From positions 1-27,554 of IMG/VR virus record IMGVR_UViG_3300032213_000662: a DNA stretch of 27,554 bases; one strand, given 5' to 3'. A program made the translations under genes and the position numbers. This DNA is from a virus. The notes beneath the pieces are model-generated. The model made no database searches. It had not been told where the DNA came from and worked only from the letters and a program-made list of their open reading frames with translations. Shown here piece after piece: positions 23,768 through 27,554 of the stretch. Position 1 is the first letter of the stretch; each line of letters begins with the position of its first letter.

Positions 23768-23777
23768 GACAATCGAA

Positions 23778-23817
23778 ACGGGCGCAGGCCCGTCTGGCAG
23801 GGGCTGGCTTCCCGCCA
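23778..23817 (+). promoter_or_regulatory. two hairpins between early genes
   Basis: ACGGGC/GCCCGT with a GCAG loop (23778-23793) is followed by TGGC-A-GGG / CCC-GCCA (23795-23817) with one bulge. They follow a repeat that in other copies carries a start codon, but here has ATC in place of ATG (23771-23773). There is no T-run, so these may modulate mRNA stability or partial termination rather than end transcription. Confidence 0.35.
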
Positions 23818-23850
23818 CTGATGAGATAGGCTAGAAGGGAGTTTAGATAA

Positions 23851-25608: not shown

Positions 25609-25920
25609 TTATATTCCGTCATAATCCTGTTCTCCAGCCTGTTTTGCAAAGTCCTCTTGGCAGTTAAATTCGCCGGATGGCTTGGCTATAAACACGGGTG
25701 CTATCCTAAATTCAGACGTCATTCTCACATGTGTTGCGTCAACCCAACTCAAGGCGTCTTTCGGTAGATATTCTGCCCTGGCCTCGATTGGTAAATCCCA
25801 ATACGCCTCCCACATAAACAGCCTCACCGGCCCGACCGAATCCGAGCCTCGTCTAGCCTGCCAGTTCAAGCCCATTGAATATCTGTAAATAGGCCTAGTG
25901 CAGATAAAGATTTCTGTCAT
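25609..25920 (-). CDS. 103-aa protein next to synthetase-like gene, unknown
   Basis: ATG 25920 follows the preceding stop directly (TAA ATG) with GGAG upstream. The N-terminal half is aromatic (FICTRPIYRYSMGLNWQARR; RLFMWEAYWDLP), the C-terminal half contains WVDATHVRMTSEF and FIAKPSGEFNCQEDFAK. Mixed alpha/beta is likely. I do not recognise it. Its immediate coupling to the synthetase-like gene suggests a shared function or complex. Confidence 0.6.
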   Translation of the reverse strand: MTEIFICTRPIYRYSMGLNWQARRGSDSVGPVRLFMWEAYWDLPIEARAEYLPKDALSWVDATHVRMTSEFRIAPVFIAKPSGEFNCQEDFAKQAGEQDYDGI

Positions 25921-26607
25921 TTATTCTCCAGCCAATGTCGCAACCCGGTCAAGCCCGATTGCAATCTCACAGACGCGGGTGTCCGGCGCATAGTCCGTTC
26001 GTATTGAACAGGACGCCATTTCACGCCAGCTACTCCCATGAAGAGCCTCAATGTCGAACGTGCTTTCGCTATAGCTTGGCAGTCGGTCGCTTTCAACTAT
26101 TCGAGCATCCTTCATTGTAAAGCGTTCAATCTCGCGCCGCACAACAGAGATCAGCGCGGAACGATAATCGGCCTTGGTGTCAGCGCCATAGATGCACTGA
26201 AATTCCAGTTGCCAGAAACTGTTAAACCTCAATTTGCTGGCACTTGCCCCGTCATTTGTCTCACGCCTAGAGCTGATACCGGACTGCCACACACAGAGCG
26301 GAAGCTTGCCCCCCAGCCATCGCGCATAGGCATAGCTTGATGGCGTTGTTTCTGCGCGTAGACACAGCGGCTCTCCGCCACGAATGTCATTCGTGACGAA
26401 TATGTCGTTTTCATCATAGGCCGCGCTGATCTCGGAGCGCGGATGCAAAATCGGCCCTTCGCACCGGGCGAATCGCCATGCCGGATTTAGGTTCAAAAGA
26501 GTCCTTCTGACGACATTGACAACCCGTGATTGAAAAGCCTCACGCAATTCAATTTCCGATTCGTGCCAAAACCGTAGGCCACCAAGATTGAATAAAGCTT
26601 CACTCAT
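25921..26607 (-). CDS. stand-alone class II aminoacyl-tRNA-synthetase-like domain (GlyRS-like)
   Basis: 228 aa. ATG 26607 overlaps the zinc-ribbon stop (ATGA). The class II catalytic core is visible from end to end: a helix then the motif 1 region (AFQSRVVNVV, WRFARCEGPIL, Pro 52); LRAETTPSSYAYARWL at 83-98, like the LRPETAQ block of glycyl-tRNA synthetase; KLPLCVWQSG followed by motif 2 SRRE (Glu 116) and LRFNSFWQLEFQ; SSWREMASCSIRTDYA at 192-207, like the WxELEGIxxRTDY block of GlyRS; and motif 3 CEIAIGLDRVATL with Arg 221. It stops there: no anticodon-binding domain (full GlyRS is over 400 aa). Adenylate formation is likely; tRNA or another acceptor is unknown. HisZ, EpmA and amino acid:carrier ligases are known precedents for truncated paralogues. 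Confidence 0.75.
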   Translation of the reverse strand: MSEALFNLGGLRFWHESEIELREAFQSRVVNVVRRTLLNLNPAWRFARCEGPILHPRSEISAAYDENDIFVTNDIRGGEPLCLRAETTPSSYAYARWLGGKLPLCVWQSGISSRRETNDGASASKLRFNSFWQLEFQCIYGADTKADYRSALISVVRREIERFTMKDARIVESDRLPSYSESTFDIEALHGSSWREMASCSIRTDYAPDTRVCEIAIGLDRVATLAGE

Positions 26608-26825
26608 TTTCGTTCCCTTTCTTTTTGCCAGCCGTCTTTAAGGTGGCCATAATCTCTTGGCTCAGTAACTAGAGAGTGCGCGCCGCAAACGCAACATTCA
26701 TCTACATGCCACGTCGCAACGCCACATTGTTTGCGTCCGTATTTTTCTCCGCAGTCGGAGCATATCCAGGCGGGGTAAGGTGTCATTCCAAGTGTTCTCC
26801 GGTTCTGATGGCGTCAATTAGCTGG
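26600..26825. repeat. 226-bp direct repeat, copy 1 (derived)
   Basis: This matches 27307-27532 with six mismatches in 226 bases, offset 707. It contains a whole zinc-ribbon gene, its ribosome site and the last codons of an upstream gene. Here those codons follow an unrelated gene and are out of frame, so this is the derived copy. Confidence 0.9.
26604..26786 (-). CDS. 60-aa zinc-ribbon protein, copy 1
   Basis: ATG 26786 with GGAG ten bases upstream. The protein has C9-x2-C12, Cys 21, then C31/C32 and C34 in ECCVCGAH, a plausible four-Cys zinc ribbon; the rest is LVTEPRDYGHLKDGWQ and a charged tail. It differs from copy 2 at two residues (Ala6 and Glu14 here). I recall near relatives in enterobacterial phages, of unknown role. 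Its last codon overlaps the synthetase-like gene's start (ATGA), so it couples to that gene. A nucleic acid or protein adaptor role is possible. Confidence 0.75.
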   Translation of the reverse strand: MTPYPAWICSDCGEKYGRKQCGVATWHVDECCVCGAHSLVTEPRDYGHLKDGWQKERERK

Positions 26826-26828
26826 GCA

Positions 26829-27314
26829 CTACCCCTTCTCCCTTATCTCCAACCCACGGGCTTCCAGTGCGGCGCGGATTAATTTAGCGTAATCTTTCTC
26901 CTCATCCCAACCAACGCCAATGTCTATTTCCTCCAACACCTCCACCAGCGGGTCAGGCTTGAGGATGATGAAGCGGTCCAGTCGGTTGCTAAACAGCACA
27001 TCCATCTTCGGCTCAGTCCAGTGCGTTTTAATCATAAATTTGGCATCCATCACCGCATCGCTCACATCTTGCTTAAAGGCTTCGTTCTGTTCGATGGCGC
27101 GGCATAAGGCTTTGAACACGTCCCGTCGCTCGGCCTCAAAGGCGTCAAGTTCATAATACACCCCTTCGGCTACCTCATTCACCAGCGCCAGTGCTTTTTG
27201 TTCAATCGGATTCATTAGTGCTTTTTGTTCACTTGTGGGCTTATGAAACCCGCGCGCGGTGATCTTGCCGCCGGTGATTTGCTTGACCACACTCCCATTC
27301 CAAACATCACTCAT
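26829..27314 (-). CDS. 161-aa protein between the two repeats, unknown
   Basis: ATG 27314 overlaps the second zinc-ribbon stop (ATGA), with AAAGGGAA upstream. It begins MSDVWNGSVVKQITGGKITA, then is strongly helical: LMNPIEQKALALVNEVAEGV, then AFEAERRDVFKALCRAIEQN, ending IRAALEARGLEIREKG. The middle has THWTEPKMDVLFSNRLDRF. The acidic/basic helix pattern is common in phage early proteins. No family is assigned. It is the insert or flanked gene between the duplicated cassettes. Confidence 0.65.
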   Translation of the reverse strand: MSDVWNGSVVKQITGGKITARGFHKPTSEQKALMNPIEQKALALVNEVAEGVYYELDAFEAERRDVFKALCRAIEQNEAFKQDVSDAVMDAKFMIKTHWTEPKMDVLFSNRLDRFIILKPDPLVEVLEEIDIGVGWDEEKDYAKLIRAALEARGLEIREKG

Positions 27315-27532
27315 TTTCGTTCCCTTTCTTTTTGCCAGCCGTCTTTAAGGTGGCCATAATCCCTTGGCTCAGTAACTAGAGAGTGCGCGCCGCAGACGCA
27401 ACATTCATCTACATGCCACGTCGCAACGCCACATTGTTTGCGTCCGTATTTTTTTCCGCAGTCGGAGCATATCCAATCCGGGTAAGGTGTCATTCCAAGT
27501 GTTCTCCGGTTCTGATGGCGTCAATTAGCTGG
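27307..27532. repeat. 226-bp direct repeat, copy 2 (parental)
   Basis: About 97% identical to 26600-26825. In this copy the segment before the zinc-ribbon gene is the in-frame 3' end of another gene (27490-27552), so this is the original context. Confidence 0.9.
27311..27493 (-). CDS. 60-aa zinc-ribbon protein, copy 2
   Basis: ATG 27493 overlaps the stop of the upstream partial gene (ATGA). It is identical to the copy at 26604-26786 except for Asp6 and Lys14. The Cys pattern (C9, C12, C21, C31, C32, C34) is unchanged, so both copies should fold. Of the six repeat mismatches, the ones in codons 6 and 14 change residues and the others I checked are silent, suggesting that both copies are kept by selection. 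Its stop overlaps the start of the 161-aa gene. Confidence 0.75.
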   Translation of the reverse strand: MTPYPDWICSDCGKKYGRKQCGVATWHVDECCVCGAHSLVTEPRDYGHLKDGWQKERERK

Positions 27533-27554
27533 CCACGCCATAGCTGGTCAAAAT
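27490..27554 (-). CDS. 3' end of an upstream minus-strand gene (partial)
   Basis: The minus-strand frame is open from the window edge to TGA 27492-27490 and reads FDQLWRGQLIDAIRTGEHLE. No start is in the window. The ending overlaps the zinc-ribbon start (ATGA). The last 13-14 codons are copied, out of frame, at 26783-26825. Confidence 0.6.
   Translation of the reverse strand, partial: FDQLWRGQLIDAIRTGEHLE

Follow-up and report, generated by a model that had tools for sequence, protein, structure and literature searches.

A stand-alone class II synthetase core, nearest to dimeric glycyl-tRNA synthetase, carried as portable cargo by phages

The minus-strand gene at 25921-26607 of the window, by which we mean the whole 27,554-nucleotide stretch of viral DNA analyzed (IMG/VR record IMGVR_UViG_3300032213_000662), encodes a complete class II aminoacyl-tRNA synthetase catalytic core of 228 residues and nothing more. 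Its nearest relative in both sequence and fold is the dimeric glycyl-tRNA synthetase (GlyRS), as judged by profile, fold and model evidence, and the gene is a portable piece of phage cargo that recurs in otherwise unrelated genomes.

A catalytic core related to dimeric GlyRS

The reading frame runs from an ATG at 26607 to a stop at 25921-25923, and a GAAAGGGA ribosome-site-like stretch can be read directly in the sequence upstream of the ATG. The class II motifs follow one another in order within the 228 residues, as had been proposed from the letters alone. By alignment, and all on the minus strand, motif 1 spans residues 45-60 (26428-26475, with Glu-50 and Pro-52), motif 2 residues 110-141 (26185-26280, with Arg-114, Glu-116, Arg-127 and Phe-131 and the pocket residue Glu-135) and motif 3, CEIAIGLDR, residues 213-221 (25945-25971, with Glu-214 and Arg-221). 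The LRAETT block (residues 83-88, 26344-26361) provides Glu-86 as the glutamate of the GlyRS RPET, and in the WREMASCSIRTDY block (residues 194-206, 25990-26028) Glu-196, Arg-203 and Asp-205 match the GlyRS "GELEGIANRTDF." Only 7 residues lie beyond the motif 3 arginine, compared with a median of 11 and a maximum of 40 among 93 family members. An anticodon-binding domain is absent from every family member examined, as judged by the length past motif 3 and by Pfam search, which upholds the suggestion that this core is without tRNA-binding domains.

Pfam PF00587 matches the window protein with an E-value of 1.5e-4 and its relatives with values down to 2.3e-14, and the NCBIfam GlyRS model PRK04173 matches all 21 members tested (best 8.5e-17), with scores of 27 to 66 bits that do not reach the equivalog cut-off of 312. 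No PHROGs family covers the synthetase. When a single sequence was searched against the PDB, pyrrolysyl-tRNA synthetase (PylRS) was the best match, whereas a profile built from 60 relatives placed GlyRS first (2.9e-17), with SerRS and PylRS behind. The AlphaFold2 model of the window protein is of high confidence (mean pLDDT 94.2, pTM 0.91), and a VIA-align ranking of folds puts GlyRS structures at the top (Z of 22.5 over 220 of the 228 residues, rmsd 2.6), followed by ProRS, HisRS, ThrRS and the glycine:[carrier protein] ligase of Bradyrhizobium; the gap in Z between GlyRS and the other folds is small (under 2), so the assignment to GlyRS rests on the sequence evidence. The sequence-only reading of this DNA had called the product a GlyRS-like class II core, and had named the absence of a class II fold, or the loss of the motif 2 and motif 3 arginines, as what would speak against it; the antiparallel class II fold is present at a pLDDT of 94, Arg-114 and Arg-221 are kept in 93 of 93 members, and a top match to GlyRS with intact ATP-contacting arginines is what the searches returned.

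With dimeric (α2) enzymes such as those of Mycobacterium (8slg, 8u2p) and Thermus (1ati, 1b76), the phage core has in common the core fold, motifs 1-3, the residues of the glycine pocket and the RxDF and ExxxGxxR signatures. It differs in being 228 residues long rather than about 450-500, in having neither the C-terminal anticodon-binding domain nor the insertions, and in a sequence identity of 17-21%. PylRS is also a small class II core, but the family profile matches it much more weakly than it matches GlyRS.

Four 185-217-residue viral proteins in BFVD (A0A141HRQ2, A0A292GIB7, A0A2I7SAH4 and K7QJG2, the last from Escherichia phage phAPEC8) have class II synthetase-like predicted folds and little sequence identity, and further minimal synthetase cores may therefore exist.

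Conservation of the active site

The residues expected to contact ATP are retained almost without exception, with Arg-114, Glu-116, Phe-131 and Arg-221 present in all 93 aligned members and Arg-127 in 92. The same holds for the positions that align to the glycine pocket of GlyRS, with Glu-135, Glu-196, Arg-203 and Glu-214 in 93 of 93 and Glu-86 in 92 of 93; we take these five to be the positions lining the glycine site of the Thermus and human enzymes. Ala-216 is the same residue as in mycobacterial GlyRS, an enzyme with a solved glycyl-adenylate complex. As far as an alignment can tell, the conserved residues argue strongly that the enzyme works and forms adenylates, and the conserved pocket is good evidence for glycine as its probable substrate.

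The subclade of the window protein departs from this pattern in motif 2, which reads GISSRRE there and GKSFRRE, or a form with tyrosine replacing the phenylalanine, in nearly all other members. The changes are K111I, F113S and E130S, and the three positions are altered in a few other members as well. Lys/Arg-111 and Glu-130 are missing in the identical 11 of the 93 sequences and both retained in the other 82, a perfect covariation that suggests a coupled salt bridge rather than decay; an aromatic residue at position 113 is missing only in the window protein and its three nearest relatives. When the window copy is compared with its 79-84% identical relatives, silent sites are saturated (pS 0.78-0.84) while pN is 0.12-0.14, and dN/dS is 0.05-0.26 in the pairs where it is measurable. 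Given that proteins remain 79-84% identical while silent sites are saturated, the synthetase gene is under strong purifying selection.

Carriers and genomic neighborhood

The window contig carries genes for terminase, portal, scaffold, major head and ejection proteins (PHROGs), in agreement with the earlier description of the synthetase as a phage gene. Its portal shares 47% and 45% identity with the portals of genomes of 40-44 kb, that of Sinorhizobium phage phiM5 included, a kinship from which the window probably covers some two thirds of the genome of a small LUZ24/phiM5-like podophage. A type II hammerhead ribozyme (Rfam RF02276, 43 bits against a gathering threshold of 37) lies at 23771-23835 on the plus strand, antisense to the packaging operon and about 2 kb from the synthetase.

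Relatives of the synthetase occur in jumbo phages of Caulobacter (Bertelyvirus), Brevundimonas, Sinorhizobium and Xanthomonas, where they are annotated as hypothetical proteins or as various synthetases, in more than 90 IMG/VR contigs and at 73 loci of genome assemblies, mostly of Rhizobium. The carriers thus range from jumbo phages with tRNA arrays through siphophages to small tRNA-less podophages, together with one phage-derived clade on alphaproteobacterial chromosomes. DOMOVOI_03110, CcrBL9_gp230c, Phosso XYS97415.1 and XbC2_371 belong to the same family at 35-52% identity over nearly their full length, as does the BFVD entry A0A6J5M2P2; all are annotated and uncharacterized. The four named relatives come from phages with genomes larger than 300 kb, the majority of them rich in tRNAs, whereas the window, probably from a small podophage, has no detected tRNA.

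Phages with synthetase copies that are 67-84% identical have almost nothing else in common. With its nearest large relative (176 kb) the window shares only the synthetase (79% identity) and one 81-residue ORF, and a portal or major head gene in common with the window was found in only 2 of 20 relative-bearing contigs, one of them near-identical and the other podophage-like. This other podophage-like contig (39 kb) carries a divergent copy, from which it follows that small podophages have probably gained the gene at least twice. We conclude that the synthetase is portable phage cargo. The bacterial copies fall mainly into one clade within the phage part of a quick tree (support 88, and 99 with three phage neighbors), and because they nest inside the phage tree we read this clade as capture from a phage followed by descent in Rhizobium. 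A match was found in 75 of 148 Rhizobium genomes, with several of the copies broken, and in 1 of 288 sampled genomes of other alphaproteobacteria.

No neighboring gene is conserved across unrelated loci, or across genera among the bacterial genomes. The top cluster among the phage loci was rejected as an antisense frame of the synthetase itself, an artefact of simple ORF picking, and two apparent bacterial clusters were discarded since they overlap the synthetase gene. Directly downstream in the window, a minus-strand 103-residue ORF (25609-25920) has no family match, and no homologue of it adjoins other synthetase copies. Genes for NAD salvage (NMN adenylyltransferase, nicotinamide phosphoribosyltransferase, NadR and PnuC) stand 1-5 kb upstream of the synthetase in phages of Caulobacter and Xanthomonas (loci L022, 2192-4710, and L021, 2605-4450). 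PADLOC gave no match, and membership of the synthetase in a defense system was rejected.

The idea that the synthetase is coupled to a zinc-ribbon gene did not survive. The 60-residue zinc-ribbon ORF (26604-26786, minus strand), which overlaps the synthetase start by ATGA, encodes a common phage protein and was found near none of 71 other phage synthetase copies tested, and we attribute the adjacency to a local duplication. It sits in one copy of a 235-nucleotide direct repeat (26595-26829), the second copy of which (27302-27536, 96%), also found by repeat comparison, lies upstream of a different 161-residue gene (26829-27314). The zinc-ribbon ORF is present in both copies and in each overlaps the start of the gene that follows, which is not the same gene in the two cases; it looks as though cargo had been inserted behind the ORF.

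The acceptor of the activated glycine

Across the phage loci, the synthetase keeps company with tRNA genes, and in large phages it is often found inside or next to a tRNA array. A tRNA gene lies within 1 kb in 31 of 71 loci, tRNA density falls from 0.82 per kb within 250 bp of the synthetase to 0.23 per kb at 3-4 kb, the synthetase shares its strand with 223 of 224 tRNAs, some of them only 6-62 bp away, and five larger genomes or long contigs with the gene have 7 to 62 tRNA genes or calls. This clustering points to a translation-related role, although tRNA proximity may reflect only the layout of gene modules. The nearest tRNAs are of mixed type. A pairing with tRNA-Gly by proximity was rejected, since its enrichment within 300 bp is not significant (8 of 31 against 26 of 193, p = 0.07), as were unusual discriminators of the phage tRNA-Gly (U73 in 42 of 43). 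No tRNA was found in the examined stretches of the window, the 39-kb podophage contig and several other small contigs, most viral contigs being fragments; that tRNA-less small phages carry the gene indicates that a phage tRNA partner is not essential. In phage Phosso, CysRS, peptidyl-tRNA hydrolase, RNA ligase and an ATP-grasp protein are annotated near the synthetase. In the huge phages that have a CUA-anticodon (amber) tRNA gene near the synthetase, a cysteinyl-tRNA synthetase-like protein of about 456 residues is encoded ∼1.2 kb upstream (L020, 5579-6949, with relatives in L054-L072). A tmRNA and its tag peptide were called by ARAGORN in Caulobacter phage CcrBL9 (L222, 9018-9450, or about 149018-149450 of the genome).

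The account that we prefer, tentatively and at a little under an even chance, is that of a free-standing core, derived from dimeric (α2-type) GlyRS and catalytically competent, which would bind ATP and glycine, form glycyl-AMP and pass the glycine to the 3' end of a tRNA. Because the core is without an anticodon-binding domain, this tRNA would be chosen through its acceptor stem only (G1-C72, U73); it would be a host tRNA in tRNA-less phages like that of the window and, in jumbo phages, phage tRNAs as well, and the portable cargo would maintain the supply of Gly-tRNA when charging by the host falls short or comes under attack. The parts of this account differ in strength. Formation of glycyl-AMP from glycine and ATP is likely, as far as conservation can indicate; transfer to the 3' end of a tRNA recognized by its acceptor arm has weaker support, with chances that are about even; and a portable aid to Gly-tRNA supply during infection is speculative. 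In bacteria, U73 and G1-C72 are glycine identity elements (PMC9976931), so recognition without the anticodon is thinkable, but C35 and C36 are major identity elements too (PMC9976931), and these a core free of the anticodon domain could not read, which argues against charging by the acceptor arm. The unusual motif 2 residues of the window subclade (K111I, F113S and E130S) also weigh against our account. A narrower version, in which an anticodon-domain-free minimal GlyRS moves between unrelated phages to counter defenses or toxins that deplete Gly-tRNA and was retained by Rhizobium after its capture, seems to us unlikely; GNAT toxins such as AtaT2 acetylate Gly-tRNA (PMC7470980), and we put forward the link to toxins of this kind purely as a hypothesis.

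The strongest rival to tRNA charging is that glycine is activated and then moved to a non-tRNA acceptor, which might be a protein, a carrier-bound phosphopantetheine, a lipid or a small molecule, and we regard this as rather improbable while giving it more weight than any other rival. Amino acid:[carrier protein] ligases are a known offshoot related to GlyRS and SerRS (PMC9437257), and the absence of a tRNA-binding domain, as well as the retention of the gene without linked tRNA in tRNA-less phages and on Rhizobium chromosomes, would be in keeping with such a role. The glycine:[carrier protein] ligase Bll0957 of Bradyrhizobium (4h2s, 3mf2) is likewise a stand-alone class II core of similar, comparably small size without a tRNA-binding domain, is a known case of glycine as the substrate, and is among the top folds (Z 20.8). 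Bll0957 resembles SerRS, is a zinc enzyme and has a carrier protein gene linked to its own, and the active-site zinc of an amino acid:[carrier protein] ligase is held by a conserved Cys/Glu/Cys. The phage family, only 16% identical to it, has a profile closer to GlyRS than to SerRS-like enzymes, and judged by column invariance over the 93 members no column is invariant for Cys or His (the best Cys columns reach 71 and 73 of 93), which makes a conserved zinc site unlikely. Nor is there a conserved neighbor that could be the carrier protein, a family search having matched none among the window neighbors and no neighbor family being conserved across unrelated loci.

Less probable again is a special RNA partner, either a phage tRNA with a CUA anticodon, forming an orthogonal suppressor pair as with PylRS, or a modified tRNA position as with GluQ-RS. 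PylRS was the best single-sequence match, and in nine loci of one huge-phage clade that includes Phosso (L020, 7591-7666, and L054, L055, L057, L060, L062, L063, L069 and L072) a same-strand CUA tRNA precedes the synthetase by 53-1,875 bp; in L045 such a tRNA lies 1.7 kb from the synthetase, and most of these tRNAs have G73. With nine of the ten loci in a single clade, and with no CUA tRNA in the window, its 176-kb nearest relative, CcrBL9 or Domovoi, or indeed in most of the phages, such a partnership was rejected as a general rule, and we keep the CUA tRNA of this clade as a lead only. TAG recoding in Phosso was rejected as well, the excess of long readthrough frames being antisense-looking artefacts, and in phage XacN1, another carrier of CUA tRNAs, no readthrough target was found (PMC5852040). 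GluQ-RS (YadB) offers the precedent of a synthetase core without an anticodon-binding domain that aminoacylates RNA at an odd site, but it is a class I enzyme that transfers glutamate to queuosine 34 and has no homology to the phage core. Small stand-alone cores are often recruited as non-catalytic or regulatory relatives, HisZ among them, and the gene behaves as host-interaction cargo, such that it might serve as a decoy for a host synthetase, a tRNA or a defense protein; a role in binding only would not need the ATP and glycine-pocket residues that are invariant across very diverse members, and we consider it very unlikely. We give least credence to a nucleotide enzyme that would make Ap4A or a related signal, or act on aminoacyl-AMP analogues, instead of charging, for although GlyRS makes Ap4A and one of the top fold matches is the structure of human GlyRS with Ap4A (2zt5), the conserved glycine pocket would be unneeded and nothing supports this role directly.

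Shortened relatives of synthetases that have taken on new functions are already known (PMC9437257). The sequence-only reading knew of no described phage system of this shape, and this stands insofar as we found no experimental or functional description, in the searchable literature, of a widespread, phage-mobile GlyRS core free of the anticodon domain; it does not stand for the proteins themselves, as homologues in Brevundimonas, Sinorhizobium and Xanthomonas jumbo phages are annotated as synthetases and family members are already in databases under generic names such as "aminoacyl-tRNA synthetase." Should the core charge tRNA, it would be a synthetase that naturally ignores the anticodon. Such an enzyme would put to a living test the proposal that acceptor stems alone sufficed for early class II synthetases, and would give the engineering of charging systems a compact starting point. 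Should it not charge tRNA, the core would be a new phage amino-acid transferase. That the gene has reached unrelated phages, and was captured by Rhizobium, suggests an advantage in many hosts, which would make tRNA charging a likely front in the conflict between phages and their hosts.
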